Assembly (NCBI GenBank): GCA_030578315.1
Contig: JAUQQL010000011.1
Coordinates: 1-38,988, forward strand
DNA length: 38,988 bases
Direction of reading: 5' to 3'
Origin: Thermodesulfobacteriota bacterium
GTDB lineage: Bacteria; Desulfobacterota; Thermodesulfobacteria; Thermodesulfobacteriales; Thermodesulfobacteriaceae
The position numbers and the translations under genes are program-made. A model generated the notes under the pieces. It did not search any database, had not been told where the DNA came from, and worked only from the letters and a program-made list of their open reading frames with translations. Shown in pieces: positions 5,952-22,905 of the stretch. Each line of letters starts with the position of its first letter. Positions within the stretch are counted from its first letter, which is position 1.

Positions 5952-7073
5952 TTAATCTGCACTTCTTCTTAAAAAAGTAGGAATTTCAAGTAATTCTTCG
6001 GAAATAAAATCTAAAGAAAACTTTTTTCTTCTTTCTTCTTTTTTTCTCAGTGATTCATCTAAGTAAATAACTCCCTCTTTTTCAGGAGTTGAAATTTCTT
6101 TTCCTTCTTTTAATCCTGTAGCAATTACTGTTACTCTTAATAGATCTCCCAAACTTTCGTCAAAAACTATACCCCAGAAAACTTTTGCGTCTGGGTGAAG
6201 TTCTTTAGAAATAGTAGAAGTAATAATTTGAGTTTCCTGTAAGGTTAAGGTATCAGGATGTACAGTAATATTCAGAATCAGCCCTTTAGCTCCTGAAATG
6301 GAAAGATCCTCAAGAAGGGGGCTAGATATAGCCATTTGAGTTGCAATTTCTGCCCTTTCTTCGCCACTTGCCTCTCCCATTCCCATAAGAGCTAATCCTC
6401 CACTTTCACTCATAACCATTTTTACATCAGCAAAATCCAAATTGATATAACCAGGGGAAAGAATTAAATCAGAAATTCCCTTTACTGCATAATATAATAC
6501 ATCATCTGCTTTTTTAAACATTTCAAAAAGTTTTTCTTGAGGAGAACCCAAGGTTATTAATCTGTCATTAGGTATAACTATCATAGTATCTACATATTTT
6601 TTTAGTTCTTCTAGTCCTTCTTCCGCTATTTTCATTCTATATCTTCCTTCAAAACTAAATGGTTTGGTCACCACTGCTACAGTTAAAATTTCCATTTCTT
6701 TACATATTCTGGCTATTACTGGAGAAGCTCCAGTTCCAGTACCTCCTCCCATTCCAGCAGCTATAAAAACCATATCAGTATTTTTTAGATACTCTCTAAT
6801 TTCTCTTTCACTCTCTAGAGCTGATTGTCTACCAATTTCAGGATCTCCTCCTGCTCCCAATCCTTTAGTTAAATTTTTTCCTAAATGAATTTTAATAGGA
6901 GCTAAATTAAGACTTAAAATTTTATAATCGGTGTTGGCTGCTATAAACTCTACTCCTTGAAGACCTTTTTTTATCATATTTCCTAAAGCATTTCCTCCAC
7001 CACCACCTACTCCTATAACTTTTATATTTGGTTGAATCTTGAGTTCCAAATCTTCTCCTAATGTATTAACCAT
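5952..7073 (-). CDS. ftsZ: Cell division protein FtsZ
   Basis: GVGGGGGNALGNM, GMGGGTGTGASPVIA tubulin signature, C-terminal conserved peptide ELLEIPTFLRR. Confidence 0.99.
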   Translation of the reverse strand: MVNTLGEDLELKIQPNIKVIGVGGGGGNALGNMIKKGLQGVEFIAANTDYKILSLNLAPIKIHLGKNLTKGLGAGGDPEIGRQSALESEREIREYLKNTDMVFIAAGMGGGTGTGASPVIARICKEMEILTVAVVTKPFSFEGRYRMKIAEEGLEELKKYVDTMIVIPNDRLITLGSPQEKLFEMFKKADDVLYYAVKGISDLILSPGYINLDFADVKMVMSESGGLALMGMGEASGEERAEIATQMAISSPLLEDLSISGAKGLILNITVHPDTLTLQETQIITSTISKELHPDAKVFWGIVFDESLGDLLRVTVIATGLKEGKEISTPEKEGVIYLDESLRKKEERRKKFSLDFISEELLEIPTFLRRSAD

Positions 7074-7111: not shown

Positions 7112-8326
7112 TTAAATTTTTAATCTTATAAATTCTTTAATTTTCTCCCAAAAGCTTTTACCTTTGGCTTTCTCCTCTTTTTCGGTTTCTAAAGAATTGT
7201 AAGCATAAAGCAATAATCCTACAGCAGTTGCATATTGAGGATGATAAATTTCTTCAGTAAGTCCCGGCAGTTTTGGAGGATATCCAATTCTTGTAGGTAG
7301 GTCTAAAATCTGGTCTGCAAGATAAATTATTCCTGGAAGAAGTGCAGATCCTCCGGTAAGAACCAAACCACTAGTAATTTTTGTCCTATCTCCAAGATTA
7401 TCTATTTCTGCTTCTACCAACTCTAAAAGTTCTCGCACTCTAAGTTCTAAAATTTCTGCTAAAACTTTTCTGCTTAGCTTTTTAGACGGTCTATTTCCTA
7501 TACCAGGAACTTCTATAATTTCTTCTTCATTTATTAGTTCTTTTAAACAAACTCCAAACTGAATTTTTAATTTTTCTGCTTCGGTTTTTGAGGTTCTAAG
7601 TCCTATGGCTAGATCATTAGTCAAAAGCTCTCCGCCTACAGGAATAGAAGATACAAACCTTAAAACATTATCCCAAAAGCAAACTATATCTGTAGTTCCT
7701 CCTCCAAAGTCTATAAGTAATACTCCCAATTCTTTTTCCTCGGAAGTTAAAACTGCTTCTGCAGAAGCCAGTCCCTGAAAAATTACTTCTTCAACCTCCA
7801 AATCAAGTTTTTCAAAGCATCGCATTAAATTTTGTACCACAGAACGATTAGCAGTAATAAATTGAACATGTGCTTCCAATCTCATACCAGTCATTCCAAC
7901 AGGATGTAAAATTCCTCGGTGCTGATCTACAATAAATTCTTGAGGAATAATATGTAAAATAATTCGGTCAGGAGGAAGCTCAATAGATTGAGCAGAATCT
8001 AGCACTTCTTGTACCTCGTTAGGGGTTACTTGTTTTTCTTTTAAAGCTACTACCCCCATTCCAGAAATAGTTTTAATATGACTTCCTGCTATACTAGTAT
8101 AAACATTCTTAACATTTACTTTAGCTTGAGTTTTGGCTTTTTCTATGGCACTTTTTATACTTGCAGTAGCTTCTTCTATGTTAATGACCACTCCCTTTTT
8201 TAATCCCTTAGAAGGAACTACCCCCATCCCAGTAACCCAAAGCTTACCCTCTTTTTCCTCTCCTATAAGAGCACAAATTTTGGTTGTCCCTATATCTACT
8301 ACTAAAATAGCATCTCCCTTACTCAT
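7112..8326 (-). CDS. ftsA: Cell division protein FtsA
   Basis: VVDIGTTKICALIGE, LLIDFGGGTTDI, GLVLTGGSALLPGI; C-terminal putative amphipathic helix SFWEKIKEFIRLKI. Confidence 0.98.
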   Translation of the reverse strand: MSKGDAILVVDIGTTKICALIGEEKEGKLWVTGMGVVPSKGLKKGVVINIEEATASIKSAIEKAKTQAKVNVKNVYTSIAGSHIKTISGMGVVALKEKQVTPNEVQEVLDSAQSIELPPDRIILHIIPQEFIVDQHRGILHPVGMTGMRLEAHVQFITANRSVVQNLMRCFEKLDLEVEEVIFQGLASAEAVLTSEEKELGVLLIDFGGGTTDIVCFWDNVLRFVSSIPVGGELLTNDLAIGLRTSKTEAEKLKIQFGVCLKELINEEEIIEVPGIGNRPSKKLSRKVLAEILELRVRELLELVEAEIDNLGDRTKITSGLVLTGGSALLPGIIYLADQILDLPTRIGYPPKLPGLTEEIYHPQYATAVGLLLYAYNSLETEKEEKAKGKSFWEKIKEFIRLKI

Positions 8327-8329
8327 TTT

Positions 8330-9058
8330 TTAACTCCTAAATTTAATTAAAGCCTTACCCCAGGGATAATCCATTCTTATAACTTCGATCTTGTCCATTA
8401 ACTGTTTTTCGTATAAGTAAGTTACAACCTTATCTAAACTTTTATACAAAAACTGCCAATCTTTTTCAGTAATTAAAGGAAAATAAATTTTAATATTATT
8501 TTTAGTAATAAATAAAATACTTTCATTATCTAAAATAACTTTAGCGAAACTTTCGTAAACTGGTAAATAAGATTTATTGTTTTTAAGCCAGTTTAAAAAG
8601 TTAAAAAAATTTTCTTTAAATTCTTCGTTTTTTATTTCTACTACAGGGTAAAATAAATAATCTTCAGGCAAAATCTCACTTATTATATCTCCTTTTTTAT
8701 TTACTAAAAAACCTTTATTATCTTTTATTAAAATAGCTAAAGGTTCTTTTTCTTTAATTTTTATTTCTAAAATACCCAGAAAGTTTCTTGCTACCAAAAC
8801 TTCCTCTATTCGTGGATGTTTAAGCAATTTTTCTCTTATTTTGGAAAGAGAAATCCTGTAAAGTCTCTCTCCACCTTTAAGTTCGGTAAGTTTAATAATT
8901 TCCTCTTTACTTATTTTATTATTTCCAACCACTACGATTTCCTTTAATAGAAAAAGGTCTGTAAAGTAAAGTAAGTATACAAGTATTATTAAAATTAAAG
9001 AAATTATTGATCCACAAATAAAAAACTGGTTCTTAACTAATTTTTTTATAAGTTGCAT
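8330..9058 (-). CDS. ftsQ: Cell division protein FtsQ (POTRA domain)
   Basis: Single N-terminal TM, POTRA-like FLLKEIVVVGNNKISKEEIIKLTELKGGERLYRI..., position between murB and ftsA. Confidence 0.9.
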   Translation of the reverse strand: MQLIKKLVKNQFFICGSIISLILIILVYLLYFTDLFLLKEIVVVGNNKISKEEIIKLTELKGGERLYRISLSKIREKLLKHPRIEEVLVARNFLGILEIKIKEKEPLAILIKDNKGFLVNKKGDIISEILPEDYLFYPVVEIKNEEFKENFFNFLNWLKNNKSYLPVYESFAKVILDNESILFITKNNIKIYFPLITEKDWQFLYKSLDKVVTYLYEKQLMDKIEVIRMDYPWGKALIKFRS

Positions 9059-9960: not shown

Positions 9961-11327
9961 TTCTCAAGTAAATTATGCAGTTTATAAATGTCTCCTGCTC
10001 CCATGGTTACTATTACCTGTTCAGGCTCAACTATCTTTTTCAAAGTTTCTAATATACTTAAAAAGTCTTTACAAAAAAAAGTTGGTTTATGAGTTCTTAA
10101 ATTACTAACGTTTTCAAAAAATATTTTTCCACTTATTCCCGGTATAGGGACTTCACTTGCAGGGTATATTTCAGTTAAAATTAAAATATCTGATTCCTTT
10201 AAAACCATTAAAAAATCTTCCCACAAAGCTTTTACCCGCGTATATCGATGGGGTTGAAAAATTAAAATCATTTTTTTTTCAGGATACATTTTTCTTAAAG
10301 TAAGAAGAGTTTCCTTAATTTCTCGAGGATGATGAGCGTAATCATCAATTAAAATGCAATTTCTCCATTGTCCCTTAACCTCTATTCTTCTTCCCACACC
10401 TTTAAAATTCTTTAAAACTTCTAAAACTTTAGAAAAAGGCAATTTTAATTCCAAAGCTACCCCCATAGCTCCTAAGGCGTTAAGGACATTGTGAACTCCT
10501 GGGACTCCTAACCTTACCTTGCCCAAAGATTTGTTTCCTTTAAAAATTTCTACTAAAGGATAAGCTGTATCTTCTAAAATCTTACCTTTTAAAATATTTT
10601 CCTCTGAAAGTCCGTAAAAAAGAAAAGGTCCAAAAATTTCTTGAGAAATCTCTTTAACCCCTTGGTCATCTCCACATAAAATAACTTTTCCCTGAGCAGA
10701 GCATCTTTTAATAAAATTAATAAAAGCCTTTTTAATAGCAGAAAAGTCTGCGTAAAAGTCAAGGTGTTCCCTATCTATATTAGTAATAACTTCTATAAAA
10801 GGTCTGTAACAAAGAAAGGAACCGTCACTTTCGTCTGCTTCGGCTACTAGGTATTCGCTTTTTCCAAGTATTGAGTGACTGTTTATATTTTTAATAATTC
10901 CGCCTACGATAACTGTTGGATTTTTTTTAAGAGATATAAGAATTTCTGCAATCATGGAAGTAGTTGTAGTTTTTCCATGAGAACCAGCAACTACAATACT
11001 TTTAGGATACAAATTCATTACCTGAGAAAGCATTTGAGCTCTTGGAATAACCCACAAACCCATTTCTTTGGCTTTTACTAATTCTGCATTTTCTAAAGGA
11101 ACTGCTGAAGAATATACCACTATTTCAGGTTTTTCTTTTTCTAAATGTTTTCCAGAATGACCGTAATAAACCGTGATACCCTTTTTTTCTAAAATTTGAG
11201 TGTACTTATTACGATTCAAGTCACAGCCTGTAACTTTATGTCCTAAAGTAAATAAGATCAGAGCTAAACTGCTCATTCCTACTCCACCAATTCCTACAAA
11301 GTGAATACTTCTTTTTTTTTCAAGCAT
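9957..11327 (-). CDS. murC: UDP-N-acetylmuramate--L-alanine ligase
   Basis: HFVGIGGVGMSSLA, VAGSHGKTTTTSMI, EADESDGSF, DDYAHHPREI. Confidence 0.98.
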   Translation of the reverse strand: MLEKKRSIHFVGIGGVGMSSLALILFTLGHKVTGCDLNRNKYTQILEKKGITVYYGHSGKHLEKEKPEIVVYSSAVPLENAELVKAKEMGLWVIPRAQMLSQVMNLYPKSIVVAGSHGKTTTTSMIAEILISLKKNPTVIVGGIIKNINSHSILGKSEYLVAEADESDGSFLCYRPFIEVITNIDREHLDFYADFSAIKKAFINFIKRCSAQGKVILCGDDQGVKEISQEIFGPFLFYGLSEENILKGKILEDTAYPLVEIFKGNKSLGKVRLGVPGVHNVLNALGAMGVALELKLPFSKVLEVLKNFKGVGRRIEVKGQWRNCILIDDYAHHPREIKETLLTLRKMYPEKKMILIFQPHRYTRVKALWEDFLMVLKESDILILTEIYPASEVPIPGISGKIFFENVSNLRTHKPTFFCKDFLSILETLKKIVEPEQVIVTMGAGDIYKLHNLLEK

Positions 11328-12402
11328 GTTTTACCAGAGATTCCATTTCTCTTATTATTATTTCTTCAGAATCTTCTATATATAAACTTTGCATAGCTTT
11401 TTTCATATTTTCAAGTTTTTCTTGGTTTTGAAGCAGTTCTTTAAGTAGAGAATATACCTTTTCAGGAGTTGCTAGTTCTTGTTTTAAGTAAAGAGCTCCT
11501 CCTCTTTGGGCTACCATTGCAGCATTCCTTTCTTGGTGGTTCTTTATAGCATACGGAAAAGGAATAAAAAAAGCAGGTTTACCTGAAGCAAAAAGTTCTG
11601 CTAAAGTAGTAGCTCCTGCTCTTCCTAGAACTAAGTCAGCTTGAGCATAAGCCCAAGCCATATCCTCAATAAAAGAAAAAACCTTTATTCTTTCTATATC
11701 TTTTTTAGGTAAAATTTTTATATATTCTTCTTTAACCCATTCAAAATCTTCCAAACCAGTTTGATGAATAACTAAAAGGTCGTTGAAATCTTTTAAAAGT
11801 CGGGGAATTACTCTAATAGATAGCTGATTTATGAATCTTGCTCCTAAACTCCCTCCCAAAACTAAAAGTCCTTTTCCATTATGTTCTTTTTTTCTCTTCT
11901 CTTTTATTTCACTCCTTACAGGGTTTCCTGAAAAAACCACTTTTTTTTGAGGAAAGTACTTTTCACTACCCGGAAGACTTACAAAAACTCTATCCACCAA
12001 TTTACTTAAAACTCTATTTGCCCATCCTGGTTCTATGTTTTGCTCGTGTAAAGAAGTTTTTTTACCTTTGAGTTTACCTGCTAAAACTACAGGAAAAGAA
12101 ATATATCCTCCTGTGGCAAATATAATTTGAGGTTCTATTTTTTTAATAAACTTAAAAGCCTTTAAAAAGGCTTTTAGCATTTTGTAGCTAGCCTTAATTT
12201 TATCTTTAAAAGCTCTACCTAAAAAACCTTCTACGTCCAATTCTAACACTGGGAAAGGCTTATCTTTTAAAATTAAACGCTCTATTTTTCGCGTTCCAGA
12301 AACAAAGTAAACTTCTCTTCCTTTTTTTAAAAGAGTTTGAGCTATAGCTAAGCCAGGAAATATGTGCCCACCAGTTCCACCCGCTACAATTAACCATCTC
12401 AA
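11320..12402 (-). CDS. murG: UDP-GlcNAc--undecaprenyl-PP-MurNAc-pentapeptide GlcNAc transferase
   Basis: IVAGGTGGHIFPGLAIA, LHEQNIEPGWANR, GGSLGARFIN, GRAGATTLAEL. Start codon TTG overlapping the murD stop (TTGA). Confidence 0.97.
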   Translation of the reverse strand: MRWLIVAGGTGGHIFPGLAIAQTLLKKGREVYFVSGTRKIERLILKDKPFPVLELDVEGFLGRAFKDKIKASYKMLKAFLKAFKFIKKIEPQIIFATGGYISFPVVLAGKLKGKKTSLHEQNIEPGWANRVLSKLVDRVFVSLPGSEKYFPQKKVVFSGNPVRSEIKEKRKKEHNGKGLLVLGGSLGARFINQLSIRVIPRLLKDFNDLLVIHQTGLEDFEWVKEEYIKILPKKDIERIKVFSFIEDMAWAYAQADLVLGRAGATTLAELFASGKPAFFIPFPYAIKNHQERNAAMVAQRGGALYLKQELATPEKVYSLLKELLQNQEKLENMKKAMQSLYIEDSEEIIIREMESLVKHA

Positions 12403-13805
12403 TGATAAACCTCCTTTTTATCATTAGAAAACCTATTTTTAAAAAAACTAGGAGCATACTTTAAAACCAATTCTCTAAAAATTTCTCCTCTTTCTTTATA
12501 ATCACTAAATTGGTCAAAACTTGAACAAGCTGGAGAAAAAAGAACCGTATCTCCTGGTTGAGAAATTTTAAAAGCCAAAGCCAGAGCTTCTGCTAAGTTA
12601 TCCACTATATAAGTTTCTGTTAACCCCTGAAGTTCTTCAGCTATAATGTATTTGGCTTCTCCCATTAAAATTAAACTTTTAACCTTTTCTTTTATTAGGG
12701 TTGCCAAAGGTAAATAAGAAGCTCCTTTATGTTTTCCTCCTAAAATTAAAATAACAGGATAGTTAACCGAATTTAAAGCTTGCAAAGTGGCGTCCACATT
12801 AGTAGCTTTGGAATCATTTATAAAGTAAATACCTCCAAAATTGCCCACGAATTCTAATCTGTGAGGGAATCCTACAAATTCTTTGATAAGCTTTTCTACA
12901 CTTTCTCTGGAAGCTCCAAGCAAACGAGCTCCTAAACTACCTGCAATGTAATTTAGCTTATTATGAAGCCCCTTAAGCTTAAATCCTAAAAAAGAAAAAC
13001 ATTCCTCTGTTTCTCCGATCCTTAAAACAAATTCATCCTCATTTTTTAAGTAAGCCGAAAGTCCTTTTTGCTTTCCAAAAAATAAAATACTTCCTTTTAC
13101 CACATCTTTAAATTTTTCAAACCAAGGTTCTTTAAAGGGTAAAATGCTGAAATCTTCTTTTTTTTGCTTTTCAAATAATCTGTACTTATAGTAAGCGTAT
13201 TCTTCTTCATTTTTATATCTTTCTAGATGATCAGGAGTAATATTTAAGAGTATACCAACCTTGGGAGAAAAAGTTTCCACAGTTTCTAGTTGAAAACTTG
13301 AGACTTCTAATACTAGTTTGTCAACTTTAGCTTGGGATAAAATATATTCAGAAAGTGGAATACCAAAATTAGCTCCAGTGAAAACCCGATAACCTGAAAG
13401 TTTTAATAATTCTGAAACTATAGAAGAAGTAGTAGTTTTACCATTTGTTCCGGTTATAGCAATAGTATTTTCTTTTTCTTTTTCTGAAAGGTATCTCCAG
13501 GCAAGTTCTAATTCGCTCCACACAGGTATACCTTTTTTATAACAAATTTCGTAAACCTCTCTCGGAACACCAGGACTTACTATTACCAAGTCAGCAGAAG
13601 TGAGAGTTTCTATTTTGTGTCCCCCAGTTTCAAAAACCACCCCCCCTCCTATTTCAAAAGTTGAAATCATAGAAGGGGGGAGTTCTTCCTTATTTTTCTT
13701 TTCAGAAATAATTACCTGAGCACCTTTTACTAAAAGCAAACGAGTAGCTGCAATTCCACTTTTACCATACCCTATTACTACTACTTTTTTGTTTCTAAGG
13801 TCCAT
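12399..13805 (-). CDS. murD: UDP-N-acetylmuramoylalanine--D-glutamate ligase
   Basis: VVVIGYGKSGIAATRLL, AITGTNGKTTTSSI, VLEVSSFQLE, PHRLEFVG..FINDSKATN. Confidence 0.97.
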   Translation of the reverse strand: MDLRNKKVVVIGYGKSGIAATRLLLVKGAQVIISEKKNKEELPPSMISTFEIGGGVVFETGGHKIETLTSADLVIVSPGVPREVYEICYKKGIPVWSELELAWRYLSEKEKENTIAITGTNGKTTTSSIVSELLKLSGYRVFTGANFGIPLSEYILSQAKVDKLVLEVSSFQLETVETFSPKVGILLNITPDHLERYKNEEEYAYYKYRLFEKQKKEDFSILPFKEPWFEKFKDVVKGSILFFGKQKGLSAYLKNEDEFVLRIGETEECFSFLGFKLKGLHNKLNYIAGSLGARLLGASRESVEKLIKEFVGFPHRLEFVGNFGGIYFINDSKATNVDATLQALNSVNYPVILILGGKHKGASYLPLATLIKEKVKSLILMGEAKYIIAEELQGLTETYIVDNLAEALALAFKISQPGDTVLFSPACSSFDQFSDYKERGEIFRELVLKYAPSFFKNRFSNDKKEVYH

Positions 13806-14902: not shown

Positions 14903-16300
14903 TTATTTTATAGATAATAACTTTTCAACTATTCTTTCCATTTTTAAAGCTCTTGAACCTTTAACTAAAATAACTGCTTTTTCAAATTTTAGCCCAGCTT
15001 CTAAATCTTTCAAAAAAGTTTCAACTTGAGGATAAATTCTAAAAGGCTTTTGAGAAGGCAAAAAACCTTCGGCATACTTTTCTGCCATCTCCCCAATAAA
15101 ATAAGCCTCTTCAACTACCAAACTTGCTTCTCTACCAATTTTTATGTGAAATTCCTTAGCATAAATTCCCAGTTCTTTCATGTCCCCCAAAATAGCTATT
15201 TTTTTCATATTTTTTACTGGAAGAGTAGATAAAAATTCCAAAGCAGTTTTCATAGAACCTGGATTAGCGTTGTAAGTATCGTCAACAATCCAAAGTTTAG
15301 TATTCTGATATATCTTGATTCTTGAAAATAAAAGTATTTCTTTTCCTAACTTTTCTAAAATTTCTTTTAAATTTAATCCGAAGTGAATTGCTACTGCCAA
15401 ACTTGCCAAAAGATTTAAGATATAATGTTTTCCTAAATTGGGGATCTCTACAAAATAGTTCTTTTCTTGATACTTTAACCACGCTTTTATTTTAAAATCT
15501 TTCACTTCAAATTTTGAAACAAAAAAGTCTGAAGATGGATCAAAACCAAAAGAAATTTTTCGGTGAGGTAAGACTTTAACTCTTTCTCTCAAAATAGACT
15601 GGTCGTAGTTGTAAACTAATGTTCCGTTAAGAGAAGTATTTTCAAAGAGTTTAATTTTTTCTTCCAGAACTCCTTCTATACTTCCTAGTCCTTCCAAATG
15701 TGCAGGATAAATACAGGTAATTACCGAAACTTGAGGTTCAATAATTTTAGCTAGTTTTTCAATTTCTCCTGGAGAATTGGTTCCTACTTCTAAAACTGCT
15801 ACCTCTGTATCATTTTTAAAAGAAAGAATTGAAAGAGGAACACCTATCAAGTTATTGTAGTTAGCTAAATTTTTAGAAGTTTTAAAGTAAGAACTTAAAA
15901 TAGCAAATATCAGTTCTTTAGTGGTAGTTTTTCCGCACGAACCTGTAACTCCAACTACTTTAAGATTCAGTTTTTTTCTCCAAAAATTTCCTAAATCTCC
16001 TAAAGCTTTAAGAGTATCTTTAACCAAAATTACCGAGACGGTTTTGGGAATCTGTTCTATCTTAAAGCCCTCTGGAAAATGAGACAAAATTAAACCTTTA
16101 GCTCCTTTATCTATAGCTATTCTCCAAAAGGAATGGCCATCAAAGTTTTTCCCCTTAAGTGCCCAGAATAAAAAACCAGGTTGAATAATTCTAGTATCTG
16201 TAGAAACTCCTCTAAAAGATATCCCCATGTCCCCATTTATCAATATACCTTCGGTAGCTCTAACTACTTCTTCTGTAGTAAGATTTACCTCTACATTCAT
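14903..16300 (-). CDS. murF: UDP-N-acetylmuramoyl-tripeptide--D-alanyl-D-alanine ligase
   Basis: GVSTDTRIIQPGFLFWALKGKNFDGHSF, GVTGSCGKTTTKEL, DDTYNANPGSM. Confidence 0.97.
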   Translation of the reverse strand: MNVEVNLTTEEVVRATEGILINGDMGISFRGVSTDTRIIQPGFLFWALKGKNFDGHSFWRIAIDKGAKGLILSHFPEGFKIEQIPKTVSVILVKDTLKALGDLGNFWRKKLNLKVVGVTGSCGKTTTKELIFAILSSYFKTSKNLANYNNLIGVPLSILSFKNDTEVAVLEVGTNSPGEIEKLAKIIEPQVSVITCIYPAHLEGLGSIEGVLEEKIKLFENTSLNGTLVYNYDQSILRERVKVLPHRKISFGFDPSSDFFVSKFEVKDFKIKAWLKYQEKNYFVEIPNLGKHYILNLLASLAVAIHFGLNLKEILEKLGKEILLFSRIKIYQNTKLWIVDDTYNANPGSMKTALEFLSTLPVKNMKKIAILGDMKELGIYAKEFHIKIGREASLVVEEAYFIGEMAEKYAEGFLPSQKPFRIYPQVETFLKDLEAGLKFEKAVILVKGSRALKMERIVEKLLSIK

Positions 16301-17757
16301 TCTCTAGCCAGTTGAGCAACTATTTTTAAAATTTCTTCTTTATCAGAAAAGGGTATTTTTTTCCCCTTTATTTCAAAATAATTTTCGTGTCCCTTTCCTG
16401 CAACTAACAATATATCACCTTTTTTTAAATTTTTTATAGCCCACTGCAAAGCTAAACTTCTATCAATAATGATTTCGTAAGATGTCTTATTGTTTAGACC
16501 TCTTTTAATATCTTTAATAATTTTCCAAGGATCTTCAAAGCGAGGATTATCGGAAGTTAATACTATAAAATCCGCAAACTCACTTGCTACTTTACCCATA
16601 AGAGGTCTTTTAGAAACATCTCTGTTTCCTCCACATCCAAAAAGAACTATCAGTCTGTTTTTCTTAAGAGTAAGAAGACTTTTTAAAGCTTCTTCTAAAG
16701 CTAAAGGAGTGTGGGCATAGTCTATTATAATCTTAGCCTCGTTAAACTCAGCCACCAATTCAAGTCTCCCAGGAGGGTTCTTCAAATCTTTTAAAGCATA
16801 AATAAAATCCTCTTCCTGATATCCCATAGCTAACAAAATACCCCAAAGAGTCATAAAGTTTTTAACTTGATAGTCTCCCATAAGAAGGGTATTAATTTCA
16901 TACTCCTTACCTCTACTTAAAACTTTTAATTTCAAACCAGTATTTTTTTCCAGAATTTGTGCCCTTAATTTTTCTCCGTTTACCAAAATTTTAGATATAC
17001 CTTTGAGTTCGTTTGCTAGTCTTTGACCATAAGAAGTTTCTAGAGAAATAATTGCCTTTCCTTTAGGCTTTAAATATTGAGTAAAAAGCTTTTTTTTTGC
17101 TTGATAGTAGTTTTCCATGTTTATATGATAGTCGAGATGGTCTTGAGAAAGGTTAGTAAACACTCCGAGGTCAAACTTGATTCCCAGAATTCTATCTTGA
17201 GCTAGAGCATGAGAGGAAACTTCCATAACTATCGTGTTGATTTCTTTTTTTATAGCTTTTTTAAATAAATTTCCAAGAACTAAGATAGAAGGAGTAGTTT
17301 CCTTAGCTTCTATAATTTCATCTCCCAAATCATAGAAAATAGTTCCTATATAAGCAGTTTTTACTCCCAGATTACTTAAAACGGTTTTGGTAAAGTAGCT
17401 TACCGAAGTTTTTCCGTTGGTTCCGGTAACTCCTATTAAAAAAAATTTCTCAGGAGATACTTCGTAAAAGTTAAAAACCAACTTAGGTAAGACTTTTTTT
17501 AAATTTTTAACTTGAACTTGAACAATTTTATTAAAAGAGGGTTCAGGAGGGGATTCTCTTATAACAGCTATAGCTCCCTTTGAAATAGCTTCTTCAATAA
17601 AATTCTCTCCATTTAAGGTAGTTCCCCTTTTGGCCACAAAAAGATAACCCGGTAAAACTTCCTTAGAATTTTCAGTTATTCCACTAATAAAAATTTGTGA
17701 AGTTTTAGGATAAACTTCAACAACTTCCTCTTTCAAAAGTGAAAGCAATTCTTTCAT
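16297..17757 (-). CDS. murE: UDP-N-acetylmuramoylalanyl-D-glutamate--2,6-diaminopimelate ligase
   Basis: GVTGTNGKTSVSYF, EVSSHAL, IDYAHTPLALE, SDNPRFEDP (DNPR motif associated with meso-DAP specificity), VAGKGHE. Confidence 0.97.
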   Translation of the reverse strand: MKELLSLLKEEVVEVYPKTSQIFISGITENSKEVLPGYLFVAKRGTTLNGENFIEEAISKGAIAVIRESPPEPSFNKIVQVQVKNLKKVLPKLVFNFYEVSPEKFFLIGVTGTNGKTSVSYFTKTVLSNLGVKTAYIGTIFYDLGDEIIEAKETTPSILVLGNLFKKAIKKEINTIVMEVSSHALAQDRILGIKFDLGVFTNLSQDHLDYHINMENYYQAKKKLFTQYLKPKGKAIISLETSYGQRLANELKGISKILVNGEKLRAQILEKNTGLKLKVLSRGKEYEINTLLMGDYQVKNFMTLWGILLAMGYQEEDFIYALKDLKNPPGRLELVAEFNEAKIIIDYAHTPLALEEALKSLLTLKKNRLIVLFGCGGNRDVSKRPLMGKVASEFADFIVLTSDNPRFEDPWKIIKDIKRGLNNKTSYEIIIDRSLALQWAIKNLKKGDILLVAGKGHENYFEIKGKKIPFSDKEEILKIVAQLARE

Positions 17758-17763
17758 ATTTGT

Positions 17764-18744
17764 TTACTTTATTTGATGAGCTAGGTACTTTAAATAACTT
17801 AAAGTTGCTTTATAGTCTTTTTCAATTTCTGTAATTAACATTATAAGCTTATTTTTTTTAAAATCGAGATAAAGGATTTTGTTTTGCGAAAAAAAACTTA
17901 AAGGAAACTTAAAAGAAACTTCTGTAGAATGTTGACAAATTGGGGTTCTTGGTAGAATTGTAAGGTCATAGTTATTGTTACAGATCTTATTAAAAAACCA
18001 CTTAAGAATATGAAGAGGGGTTATTTTAATTTGAGAATTTTCGGAAACAGGTTTTATCTCCCCCAACTCCCAACGAAAAGAAGATATCTCTTCTGAAGAA
18101 AGATTAAAGTCAGAAACTGGGAAAAGTTGAGTAAAGTATGAGTTTTCAGGCAAATCTAAGTAGGCTAAAAATTCGCCACTTTTTAAGTCTACAACCACAG
18201 CACTAAATGACTTAGTTTCCTCAAATTTGTCACACAAATTTTTCTGAAGTTTCATATCCAAAGATATTCTAATCCAGTTTCCATCCTTCAAAACATCGTT
18301 AAAGATTTTTTCTAGGCCAGAAATACCGAAGTCATTAACTACTTCACCTATTAAAAACTTCGTACAAGGTTGCAAAATATCACGAACATAATAGCTTTCT
18401 ACAAAAACATTTTTTTCTTTTTTTAAAACTTCAACTTCTTTTAAATCTAATTTATCTGTAAGTAAAACCAGACCTTTTTTAGGGAGTTCTAGAAGAGAAG
18501 GAAGATATTTACTTACCGAAGGAGAAAGTTTTTGGCCAAAAAATCTGTCCTTAACCAGATAATAAGCTTTATAAAACTCGGCAGAAATGGCAATAGGTTC
18601 ATAATTTCTATCTAAAATTGCTCCTCTTTTAATTCCAGGGAAGTTAGTTTTTTCTTTAACTTTAGGTATAGCAAAGTTTGAAGCAAACAGTAACAAGAAA
18701 ACGAAAATAAAAGAAAAAAAACTAAATTTAAAGTTGGGTTTCAT
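17764..18744 (-). CDS. Degenerate/short FtsI (PBP3)-like protein, apparently lacking transpeptidase catalytic motifs
   Basis: At the ftsI position between ftsL and murE; N-terminal TM, PBP-like RGAILDRNYEPIAIS, GEVVNDFGISGLEKIFNDVLKDG, ISLDMKLQKNL...SAVVVDLKSGEFLAYLDLPENSYF, ITPLHILKWFF. Only 326 aa, and no SxxK/SxN/KTG at the expected order and place. Confidence 0.8.
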   Translation of the reverse strand: MKPNFKFSFFSFIFVFLLLFASNFAIPKVKEKTNFPGIKRGAILDRNYEPIAISAEFYKAYYLVKDRFFGQKLSPSVSKYLPSLLELPKKGLVLLTDKLDLKEVEVLKKEKNVFVESYYVRDILQPCTKFLIGEVVNDFGISGLEKIFNDVLKDGNWIRISLDMKLQKNLCDKFEETKSFSAVVVDLKSGEFLAYLDLPENSYFTQLFPVSDFNLSSEEISSFRWELGEIKPVSENSQIKITPLHILKWFFNKICNNNYDLTILPRTPICQHSTEVSFKFPLSFFSQNKILYLDFKKNKLIMLITEIEKDYKATLSYLKYLAHQIK

Positions 18745-19103
18745 TTTTCTATCCTCAGATAATCCTCTTCTTGAGGAGGCCTCAATCCCAAACTTTTAGC
18801 CTTTTCTAAGAGTACATCTTGAGAAGTTAGCTTTTTGTATTCTTCATTAAGCTGTTTATTTTCTTCCTCTAAAGCTTTTCTTTCTACCTTATATCTAAAA
18901 AACACATAACCTTTATAACCTGCTGCTGCTAAAGAAATTAAATTTAAAAAAATAAGCCCCAAAACTAAAATTTTTATCAAAATTTCCTTTAAAAATTCCT
19001 TCAAAAGAAAAGGAGAGGTTTTTTCGGAGATAGTTTCTTTTTCAGTTTTTGAATAAGTATAAAGTGTAGAAGGTTTGTAAATCATGTATTTTTGAGTTTT
19101 CAT
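18741..19103 (-). CDS. FtsL-like cell division protein
   Basis: Small single-TM protein followed by a coiled coil (ERKALEEENKQLNEEYKKLTS) between rsmH and the ftsI-like gene; a positional and topological call. Confidence 0.75.
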   Translation of the reverse strand: MKTQKYMIYKPSTLYTYSKTEKETISEKTSPFLLKEFLKEILIKILVLGLIFLNLISLAAAGYKGYVFFRYKVERKALEEENKQLNEEYKKLTSQDVLLEKAKSLGLRPPQEEDYLRIEK

Positions 19104-19981
19104 AGCCTTTCCACTACTCTCATTTTAGCACTACGAGAACGAGGGTTTTTTCTTACTTCTATTAAATTAGGTATTAGAGGTTTTTTAGTAAGTACCTTCA
19201 ATCTTTTATCTGACTTAAAGGCATTCTTAACCAGTCTATCTTCTAAAGAATGAAAGGAAATAATAATTAATCTACCTCCAGATTTCAAAATGTCTGGAAA
19301 GTTTTTCAAAGCTTCTTCCAAATTTTCTAACTCTTTGTTTACTTCCATTCTTAAACTTTGAAAAACTACTGGTAAAATCTGAGCATACCTTTTAGGAGAA
19401 GAAAAAATTTCTTTTACTAAAGATACAAGTTCAAAAGTTGTTTCAATCGGTTTTATTTTTCTCTTTTCTAAAATTTTTTTCGTTAAGATTTCAGCTTTCG
19501 GAACCTCTCCTTTTTTAAAAATTTTTACCAATTCCTCATAAGAATATAAGTTTAGAATTTCTTTAGCCGTAAGCTTTAAACCTAGATTCATTCTCATATC
19601 TAGAGGTTCATTTTTTTGATAAGAAAAACCCCTTCCCGAACCTTCTAAAAGAAAAGAGGAAAGTCCCAAATCTAGTAGAATTCCGTCAGCTAAAATTCCT
19701 TCTTTTTGAAGAACTTCTTTAGCAAAAATAAAGTTTTGGTTATAAAGTCTGACCCTGTCAGCATGTTTAGCAAGTCTTTGAGAGGCTAATTTATAAGAAT
19801 CTTCATTCCATTCAAATCCATAAAGGAAACACTCTTTATTACTTTCCAAAATAGCTAAACTATGACCACCTAATCCCACAGTAGCATCCACATAAATTTT
19901 TTTACCCTTTTCTTCCACTTTCAACCACTTTAAAACCTCCTCTAACAAAACAGGTTCATGATGAAATAAGTTTTTCTCCAT
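19100..19981 (-). CDS. rsmH: 16S rRNA (cytosine1402-N4)-methyltransferase
   Basis: HEPVLLEEVL, YVDATVGLGGHS, GILLDLGLSSFLLEGSGRGFSYQKNEPLDMRM, IISFHSLEDRLVK. Confidence 0.98.
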   Translation of the reverse strand: MEKNLFHHEPVLLEEVLKWLKVEEKGKKIYVDATVGLGGHSLAILESNKECFLYGFEWNEDSYKLASQRLAKHADRVRLYNQNFIFAKEVLQKEGILADGILLDLGLSSFLLEGSGRGFSYQKNEPLDMRMNLGLKLTAKEILNLYSYEELVKIFKKGEVPKAEILTKKILEKRKIKPIETTFELVSLVKEIFSSPKRYAQILPVVFQSLRMEVNKELENLEEALKNFPDILKSGGRLIIISFHSLEDRLVKNAFKSDKRLKVLTKKPLIPNLIEVRKNPRSRSAKMRVVERL

Positions 19982-20420
19982 TTAAATAAGAAGTAACATA
20001 CTTAAGTAACTTATCAAATTTTTCTTTAGTTTCACTAAATTCTTTTTCTAAGAGTTTAGGATTCCAAATCTCAAAATGATTAAGCATTCCCACCAATACT
20101 ACCTCCTTTTCCAATTTAATTTCTTCTCTTAAAGATTGAGGAATTAAAAGTCTTCCTTGTTTATCAAGCAGACATTCTTCTGCCGCACCCCAAAAGTATC
20201 TAATATATCGCCTTACCTCAAAAACTTCCCAAGGAAGATTTAAAAGTTTTACTTCTATCTTTTTCCACTCTTCTAAAGGATAAACAACTAAGTAATCTGG
20301 AAAATTAGTAATAATCAGGTTTTCACTTTCATATTTAACTCTTAAAATTTCTCTAAATTTAGTAGGAAGAACTATCCTTCCCTTCTCATCTAAAGTATGC
20401 TTATATTTACCTCTAAACAC
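19956..20420 (-). CDS. mraZ: Transcriptional regulator MraZ
   Basis: VFRGKYKHTLDEKGRIVLPTKFREIL, LDKQGRLLIPQSLRE (two SpoVT/AbrB-like repeats). Conventional start is GTG at 20420; the ORF track extends to an upstream GTG at 20450. Confidence 0.95.
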   Translation of the reverse strand: MFRGKYKHTLDEKGRIVLPTKFREILRVKYESENLIITNFPDYLVVYPLEEWKKIEVKLLNLPWEVFEVRRYIRYFWGAAEECLLDKQGRLLIPQSLREEIKLEKEVVLVGMLNHFEIWNPKLLEKEFSETKEKFDKLLKYVTSYLNGEKLISS

Positions 20421-20450
20421 TATCTTCCACTTTTTGCCACTATATACCAC
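20418..20450 (-). promoter_or_regulatory. Putative MraZ operator: GTGG boxes in 10-bp direct phase
   Basis: Minus strand reads GTGGtatataGTGGcaaaaaGTGGaagataGTGT; three GTGG plus one GTGT, each 10 bp apart, the last being the start codon region. Confidence 0.65.
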
Positions 20451-21406: not shown

Positions 21407-22180
21407 ATGTGTAAAAGTCATCAATTAAAGTATTACATAGACCTTATTCAAGTTCTGACTTTAAAAGAAATTAAAATAAGATACAAAAATAGTTTTTTAG
21501 GTTATTTTTGGTCTGTTTTACATCCATTAACTTTTGCTCTGATTTTTTATTTTGCTTTTAAATTTGTTCTAAAAATTCCTATCGAAAATTACACTCTTTT
21601 TTTAATTACAGGGCTTTTTCCTTGGCAGTGGATAACTAATTCTATTTGTGGAGGAACAGGATATCTTTTAGGCAATGCTTCTTTAATTAAAAAAGTAACC
21701 TTTCCAAAATACCTTATTTTGCTTAGTTTAGTTTTACACGATGGTTTTCATTTTTTAATTTCTCTTCCTGTGATTTTTGGTTTTTTAATTTTTTATCACT
21801 ATCCTATTTACCTATCTTGTATTTATGGAATTTTATTACTTACAGGTTCGCAATTTTTTATAATTTATGGAATAACCCTTTTGGTTTCTTCTGTTAACCT
21901 TTTTTTTAGAGACCTTGAAAGATTGGTTTCTCTTGGTTTGACCATTATTTTTTATGCAACTCCTATAATTTACGATTTATCTTTTGTTCCCCAAATTTAT
22001 CAAAAATATTTTTTATTTAACCCTTTTTACTCTCTAATTGAAAATTGGAGAAATCTTTTTTTAAAAGGCTTTATAGATTGGAAACTTTATTTTTTATCCT
22101 TATTCTATGCGGGGCTATTTTTTTTAATAGGTTTTTTGGTTTTTAAAAAGCTATCGTGGAGATTTGCAGAAGTTGTATGA
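21407..22180 (+). CDS. ABC-2 type polysaccharide/O-antigen exporter permease (Wzm-like)
   Basis: Multi-TM ABC2 permease; LKEIKIRYKNSFLGYFWSVLHPLTFALIFYFAF, NPFYSLIENWRNLFLKG. Confidence 0.9.
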   Translation: MCKSHQLKYYIDLIQVLTLKEIKIRYKNSFLGYFWSVLHPLTFALIFYFAFKFVLKIPIENYTLFLITGLFPWQWITNSICGGTGYLLGNASLIKKVTFPKYLILLSLVLHDGFHFLISLPVIFGFLIFYHYPIYLSCIYGILLLTGSQFFIIYGITLLVSSVNLFFRDLERLVSLGLTIIFYATPIIYDLSFVPQIYQKYFLFNPFYSLIENWRNLFLKGFIDWKLYFLSLFYAGLFFLIGFLVFKKLSWRFAEVV

Positions 22181-22905
22181 AAGAAGTAGTGATAACTTTT
22201 GAAAATGTTACTAAAAGCTATCCTATTTATACTCACATAACTTCAGGTTTTAAAAATTTTGTACTTAGATTTCGTGAAGTTTGGAACAATTCAAAAAAAA
22301 GATTTATAGCTTTAAAAGAAATTTCTTTTGAAATTTATAAAGGGGAGTGTTTTGGAATAATAGGAAAAAATGGAGTAGGAAAAAGTACTCTTCTTGGGCT
22401 CATTGCAGGAGTTTTAAAACCGGATACAGGTAAAATTACAGTTAAGGGGAAAGTAGCCTCTCTTCTTGAACTTGGTGCAGGTTTTCATCCGGAACTTACC
22501 GGAAGAGAAAACATAATTTTAAATGGGGTCATTTTGGGAATGACTAAAAAAGAAGTTATGAAAAAAATGGACAGAATAATAGAATTTTCAGAATTAGGAG
22601 AATACATAGATCAGCCAGTTAAAACTTACTCTTCAGGTATGCTTGCTAGATTGGGATTTTCTATAATCGCCTATCTAGATTTTGAAATACTTTTAGTGGA
22701 CGAAATTTTAGCAGTAGGAGATATTAATTTTCAAAAAAAATGTAGAGAAAAATTTCAAGAATTTAAAAAAAAGAAAGTTACTATAGTTTTAGTAAGCCAC
22801 AATTTATATGAAGTTATCTCTTTGTGTGACCGTGTTATGTGGTTAGAAAATCACAGAATTAAAGAAATTGGAAAAGCTGAGGAAATAGTTCAAAATTTTC
22901 AATAA
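22177..22905 (+). CDS. ABC transporter ATP-binding protein (Wzt/TagH-like polysaccharide exporter)
   Basis: GIIGKNGVGKSTLLGLIAGVLKPDTG, YSSGMLARLGFS, ILLVDEILAVGD, HNL switch; LELGAGFHPELTGREN typical of polysaccharide exporters. Start refined to MKEVVI. Confidence 0.92.
   Translation: MKEVVITFENVTKSYPIYTHITSGFKNFVLRFREVWNNSKKRFIALKEISFEIYKGECFGIIGKNGVGKSTLLGLIAGVLKPDTGKITVKGKVASLLELGAGFHPELTGRENIILNGVILGMTKKEVMKKMDRIIEFSELGEYIDQPVKTYSSGMLARLGFSIIAYLDFEILLVDEILAVGDINFQKKCREKFQEFKKKKVTIVLVSHNLYEVISLCDRVMWLENHRIKEIGKAEEIVQNFQ

Follow-up and report, generated by a model that had tools for sequence, protein, structure and literature searches.

In the dcw cluster of a Thermodesulfobacteriota bacterium (assembly GCA_030578315.1; the window analysed here comprises the 38,988 nucleotides at positions 1 to 38,988 of contig JAUQQL010000011.1), the place of ftsI is taken by a 326-aa FtsI homologue without SxxK, SxN and KTG at the active-site positions, hereafter called pseudo-FtsI, and ftsW is absent from the genome. 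The absence of ftsW, which an earlier note on this DNA had missed, carries more weight than the state of FtsI. Across the phylum the loss of FtsW and the predicted loss of FtsI catalysis go together. As FtsW is lost and FtsI has no active site, the septum must come from another wall-making enzyme. We consider it probable that pseudo-FtsI acts as a non-catalytic adaptor or regulator alongside a different septal synthase, which would most likely be the class A penicillin-binding protein (PBP) PBP1A, possibly together with RodA-PBP2.

The gene at the ftsI position

The pseudo-ftsI gene is located on the minus strand at 17764..18744 (ATG at 18744, stop at 17764), as the coordinates of the earlier note correctly had it. 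Its start lies in a 4-nt overlap with ftsL (19103-18741), which had also been described before, and its end is separated by 6 nt from the start of murE (17757); the gene thus occupies the ftsL/murE interval, as FtsI does. A run of 326 stop-free codons has a chance probability of about 3e-12 at 31% GC, and coding constraint is visible among the homologues. All of the sequence blocks quoted in the earlier note were recovered in the protein, and its main claim, that the segments carrying SxxK, SxN and KTG have been lost, was borne out by alignment with canonical and intermediate FtsI sequences. Two small corrections apply to its account of the motifs. SxxK occurs four times and SxN twice, which is close to the expectation for shuffled sequences (3.1 and 1.5), and none of these copies is found at an aligned active-site column. 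The active-site KTG is indeed absent, but a KSG, which was said not to exist, is present at residue 188 (DLKSGE), where it forms part of the conserved D-x-x-T/S-G-E strand and is different from the active-site KTG. A phage origin of the gene was rejected, as no match to the protein was found in PHROGs.

The cluster runs in the order mraZ (19956..20450), mraW (rsmH; 19100..19981), ftsL (18741..19103), pseudo-ftsI, murE (16297..17757), murF, mraY, murD (12399..13805), murG (11320..12402), murC, murB, ftsQ (8330..9058), ftsA (7112..8326) and ftsZ (5952..7073), the genes given with coordinates being on the minus strand. Those for mraZ, mraW and murE were identified from sequence and from synteny, for mraW in relatives, while ftsL was recognized through FtsL_Actino (6.2e-7) and ftsL_broad (0.007), both below the curated cut-offs, and through DivIC (7e-4). 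The retained division genes further include ftsQ, with its POTRA domain (POTRA_1, 2e-13), ftsA, supported by sequence and an actin-fold match, and ftsZ, identified by sequence. In the FtsW-bearing relatives examined, ftsW is located between murD and murG. Here murG follows immediately after murD, and the end of murD (12399) overlaps the start of murG (12402) by 4 nt, which leaves no space for ftsW. Beside the cluster, at 21407-22905, two ORFs on the opposite strand were read as an ABC-2 polysaccharide exporter-like pair (permease and ATPase, Wzm/Wzt-like).

Domain architecture and homology

Three parts can be distinguished in pseudo-FtsI. The N-terminal transmembrane (TM) anchor (residues 5-24; 18673..18732, minus strand) is a helix in the AF2 model and is hydrophobic in all homologues. 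It is followed by the pedestal, or PBP dimer domain (residues 39-160; 18265..18630, minus strand), recognized by the RGxIxDR...P and GxSGxE...L blocks and by hhalign. The remainder (residues 161-326; 17767..18264, minus strand) is a shrunken remnant of the transpeptidase (TP) domain, delimited by alignment with canonical and intermediate FtsI and modelled with pLDDT values mostly of 80-95. This remnant retains the first strands (SLD..LQ, VVVDLKSGE), the TPLH helix, and the last strands and helix, while the stretch from just past the D-x-x-T/S-G-E strand through SxxK and SxN has been deleted, as has the KTG strand.

No match to the transpeptidase domain (PF00905) was obtained in single-sequence Pfam searches, even at E<=10. 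The match of the window protein to PBP_dimer (PF03717) was below threshold (13.5 bits, cut-off 24.4), and this family was matched by 17 of the 19 homologues at E<=1 (best 6.9e-6). When the 19 homologues were compared with ten canonical FtsI sequences by hhalign, a probability of 98% and an E value of 1.7e-13 were obtained over residues 33-201 of the window protein, and a profile search of PDB sequences returned FtsI, PBP3, SpoVD and PBP2a chains. The AF2 model, built from 11 sequences (pLDDT 83, pTM 0.75), had as its top Foldseek matches in the PDB the PBP3 of E. coli, Yersinia and P. aeruginosa (E 1.6e-12); the matches include FtsI of the FtsWIQBL complex 8bh1, and the best ones are all class B PBPs of the FtsI/PBP3 type. 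The model superposes loosely on PBP3 (TM-score 0.54 by query, rmsd 11 A); with a large portion of the TP domain gone, such a fit is to be expected. Judged by position and homology, pseudo-FtsI is the ftsI orthologue, cut down to the anchor, the pedestal and a TP-fold core free of the active site. As every penicillin-binding active-site residue is missing, transpeptidation by that chemistry would be excluded.

Remaining wall-synthesis genes

Only two PF00905 proteins were found in the window genome (G000): PBP2, truncated by a contig start (TIGR03423, 583 bits), and the class A PBP1A (C67, 616 bits). A second GT51 domain is present in a separate 307-aa frame. The single SEDS gene adjoins that of PBP2 (mrdA) and scored 252 bits with the NCBIfam rodA model versus 201 with the ftsW model, both below cut-off. 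It falls outside the clade of dcw-encoded FtsW and hence does not represent a cognate FtsW; its catalytic Asp column is conserved. The strong MreB match (509 bits) indicates that the elongasome actin is present, and of two further weak matches one is ftsA. Judging from this gene content, the genome would lack any FtsW-FtsI pair capable of septal wall synthesis.

Thermodesulfobacterium and its order

Related loci place the window in Thermodesulfobacterium, among T. geofontis, T. hydrogeniphilum DSM 14290, T. thermophilum DSM 1276 and T. hveragerdense DSM 12571; the closest metagenome-assembled genome is SKYB108 (63% identity). In each of the 14 genomes of the genus that were compared, three of which are the DSM strains, the ftsI slot holds a motif-less protein of 284-340 aa, and in the rest of the order motif-less slot proteins of 332-522 aa are found. 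Every readable dcw locus of the order shows the same cluster with a short motif-less slot protein, and ftsW is missing wherever the murD-murG junction is on the contig. Genera g1, g2 and g6 have slot proteins of 284-340 aa, the shortest of which (284 aa) is truncated at a contig end; the lengths are about 360-392 aa for g4 and g5, 449-474 aa for family f3, and 522 aa for G030 of family f2. This length series reads as a graded erosion of FtsI, which measures about 590-740 aa in the FtsW-bearing relatives.

In the FtsW-less families f1 and f3, RodA (e.g., L001:1682-2767) scored 209-270 bits against PF01098 where complete, compared with 366 in the sister family f2 (G030) and mostly more than 300 elsewhere. 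This divergence suggests an accelerated change after FtsW loss.

Loss of FtsW and of FtsI catalysis across the phylum

SEDS proteins were surveyed in 198 genomes of the phylum, each at least 95% complete. Most of them encode two, while a set of lineages encodes one, and the dcw loci of these one-SEDS lineages were examined together with controls. None of the 60 FtsI-slot proteins of FtsW-less lineages has SxxK, SxN or KTG in place. These loci comprise 37 from the order (the window included), 18 from families f17, f20, f29, f51, f57, f61, f63, f73, f75 and f79, and five from f26 and f50; for some loci truncated by contig ends (e.g., G023, G027, G029, G040, G196) the absence of ftsW was deduced from the SEDS count. 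The control loci with a visible ftsW (G048, G050, G055, G056, G058, G059, G065, G099, G101, G106, G118, G173, G225) carry all three motifs, G050 with its FtsI split in two frames, of which the KTG half was left out of the alignment. In a tree of SEDS proteins one clade (support 0.90) unites the 42 dcw-encoded FtsW and includes no mrdA-adjacent SEDS, and the remaining SEDS of FtsW-less genomes adjoins PBP2 wherever this was tested. All FtsW-less genomes tested give a strong MreB match, and GT51, the domain of class A PBPs, is present in 40 of 40 such genomes.

The slot protein of the FtsW-less families f26 and f50 (248-318 aa; L165:9373-10119 in G066, and L166, L167, L168 and L169) was read as combining a TM helix with a segment similar to the helical subdomain of the TP domain, in which active residues are absent, and with a PASTA-like domain at the C-terminus, the pedestal having been lost. 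Its pattern of erosion appears to be the opposite of that in the window lineage. In G057 (L095:2993-4924), a 643-aa FtsI homologue passes the PF00905 cut-off even though ELGELAGF replaces EPGSxxKx and KTG is missing, so that automated annotation would label this motif-less protein an active transpeptidase.

A few genomes stand apart. G058 (L187) represents a mirror case, in which dcw-encoded FtsW and a catalytic FtsI are kept, the single SEDS leaves RodA lost and no strong MreB match is found; here it would be the elongasome that was lost rather than the septal synthase. G212 (L179, L204), a metagenome-assembled genome, encodes an intact 663-aa FtsI, but the SEDS found is of the RodA type only and its dcw cluster is broken after mraY; either this genome is misassembled or the coupling has a genuine exception here. 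FtsI is also intact in G041, where the cluster is cut by contig ends and FtsW is unseen. Finally, no SEDS was found in the 99%-complete G131 (family f17), which has three GT51 proteins; this may reflect a contig gap or a total loss of SEDS.

On a tree from concatenated MraW-MraY-MurG-MurC, the FtsW-less state requires four changes, at least three of them on well-supported branches, and f20 and f26/f50 nest among FtsW-bearing lineages. The AU test did not reject a single FtsW-loss clade (p 0.15), so that about three independent losses are favoured by the tree, although not proven. A sign test of the coupling on independent pairs gave the same direction in 3 of 3 (p 0.25), too few for significance; because the two matched in every row, FtsI was assigned the state of FtsW, and G212 and G041 were scored as FtsW-bearing though FtsW was unseen, so that this test contributes little.

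Candidates for the septal synthase

FtsL, FtsQ, FtsA, FtsZ, a class A PBP, RodA-PBP2 and MreB are still present. In the mechanism that we propose, pseudo-FtsI would stay in the divisome through FtsL and FtsQ as a non-enzymatic adaptor or regulator, and would recruit or license at the FtsZ ring another synthase, which would make the septal wall. The earlier note spoke of a scaffold, a word that likewise names an inferred role. A class A PBP, with or without RodA-PBP2, is favoured as this replacement because GT51 is found in 40 of 40 FtsW-less genomes and because of the precedent of PBP1 in C. difficile. As the slot proteins of f26 and f50 have no pedestal, no one retained domain accounts for the adaptor role everywhere.

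The main competitor holds that RodA-PBP2 is now the septal synthase, shared between side wall and septum, with pseudo-FtsI serving as the adaptor through which RodA, instead of FtsW, reaches the FtsZ ring. It is the only SEDS/class B pair left, the catalytic Asp column of the SEDS is conserved and MreB is retained. Moreover, the RodA of f1 and f3 sits on a long stem in the SEDS tree and, with its 209-270 bits against 366 in G030, looks as if its role had shifted, although faster evolution of RodA may have other causes. In C. difficile, which has a comparable enzyme set, RodA-PBP2 elongates and a class A PBP divides (PMC10693644). The present data fit both enzymes, and we regard RodA-PBP2 as possible but clearly the less likely of the two, the reading with PBP1A being the one we lean towards.

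On the evolutionary scale, the proposal would be that a joint loss of FtsW and FtsI catalysis took place on more than one occasion, in several lineages of the phylum (the Thermodesulfobacteriales, probably the Desulfobulbia, and others), with pseudo-FtsI licensing a class A PBP or a borrowed RodA-PBP2; we give this broader scenario an even chance. If true, the non-catalytic role of FtsI would be separable from, and would have outlasted, the septal synthase formed by SEDS and class B PBP.

Selection on pseudo-ftsI

A slowly decaying FtsI relic that is merely tolerated in the operon would offer another explanation. Across the order, FtsI has been eroded progressively (522, about 455, about 385 and about 330 aa), and not in the same way in every lineage; among the more divergent pairs the TP remnant changes more rapidly than the pedestal, as such a relic might show. 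Against this stand the dN/dS values (Nei-Gojobori, genome pairs), which are 0.09 (G001/G013), 0.15 (G001/G006), 0.18 (G008/G012) and 0.20 (G004/G005) for pseudo-ftsI, low even in close pairs and near those of ftsL and murB; in the tested pairs ftsL ranged from 0.07 to 0.26 and the mur genes from about 0.06 to 0.26. The nearest pair of the window (G000/G003) gave 0.22 at a dS of 1.1, which is near saturation, and the argument therefore rests on the closer pairs. In three pairs with dS <0.4, values of 0.09-0.12 were obtained for the pedestal and 0.09-0.22 for the TP remnant; the pedestal is the more constrained of the two, and has the lowest dN/dS of the protein, in most pairs. Homologues in the order have no internal stops, a near-constant length, and invariant pedestal and core residues. 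Pseudo-FtsI is maintained under purifying selection, and a relic is improbable. A fresh pseudogene is ruled out by dN/dS and length conservation; the earlier view of a non-enzymatic protein that is kept finds support in these two observations, in the motif loss, in the PDB matches of the AF2 model and in the PF00905 content of the genome. Neither a complete TP domain, nor a missing segment, nor full-length relatives with dN/dS near 1, for all of which the earlier note had advised looking, was encountered.

A full-length catalytic FtsI and an FtsW elsewhere in the genome, with the dcw copy as a spare, might have gone unseen if the draft genome misses a contig. In the single-contig relatives G005, G010, G013, G018, G017 and G032, the only clear PF00905 proteins are PBP2 and PBP1A, and one SEDS is found in each; the other PF00905 matches in the single-contig genomes of the order are the pseudo-FtsI remnants of G030 and G032 and weak ones in frames of 360-390 aa. 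On this content, and on that of the window genome itself, a second ftsI or ftsW was rejected as very unlikely. An artefact in which an internal ftsI segment went missing might be suspected in an assembly of 71 contigs with 5% contamination, but it is refuted, and its probability negligible, since the same architecture occurs in T. hydrogeniphilum DSM 14290, T. thermophilum DSM 1276, T. hveragerdense DSM 12571 and the single-contig G005, G010, G013 and G018.

Comparison with known systems

The absence of ftsW from these groups has been reported before, in one clause each. PMC8871954 states that it is missing from the dcw cluster of Thermodesulfobacteria, which is confirmed here; PMC7873302 states its absence in Desulfobulbaceae including cable bacteria, and lists FtsI among the recruited divisome proteins. 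Neither of these passages mentions a non-catalytic FtsI. In our search, which covered literature outside subscription papers, neither a non-catalytic FtsI in these groups nor the coupling between FtsW and FtsI was found to have been described, so that the loss of ftsW was already known while for FtsI erosion and the coupling no earlier report was found.

Cell division without FtsW, and with FtsI retained only as an active-site-free protein, characterizes a taxonomically large group that includes cultured thermophiles. These proteins represent natural separation-of-function forms of FtsI, and the window lineage shows which parts selection keeps when catalysis is dropped, namely the anchor and the pedestal. 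They also offer cultured organisms whose septal synthase must be another enzyme. In walled bacteria, the FtsW-FtsI pair has been described as a universal requirement for septal peptidoglycan.

Like FtsI/PBP3 (E. coli PBP3, 7onw; P. aeruginosa FtsI, 8bh1), pseudo-FtsI is encoded in the ftsL/murE slot and has the TM anchor and the pedestal blocks. Unlike these proteins, it lacks SxxK, SxN and KTG, has a large part of the TP domain deleted, measures 326 aa and has no FtsW partner in the genome. In the literature consulted, the documented exception to the FtsW-FtsI requirement is C. difficile, which is also the nearest precedent (PMC10693644, PMC12539705): it has no functional FtsW/FtsI pair for vegetative division, and one class A PBP plus RodA-PBP2. 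Its class A PBP1 makes the septum while RodA-PBP2 elongates only (PMC10693644), and its class B PBP3 forms complexes with PBP1 and promotes septation even without catalysis of its own (PMC12539705); by analogy, pseudo-FtsI may play a counterpart role. For sporulation C. difficile nevertheless still encodes SEDS and class B enzymes in its dcw cluster (SpoVE/SpoVD), and the catalytic domain persists in its PBP3, whereas here ftsW is gone and the catalytic site of FtsI has been physically deleted. PBP1 of S. aureus, a class B PBP that acts in division, has a non-enzymatic role that is essential and involves its PASTA domains, peptidoglycan binding and septal plate formation (PMC9426605). Unlike in pseudo-FtsI, its active site is retained and its catalysis is also essential, and the PASTA domain that it carries is absent from the window protein but present in relatives of the latter.
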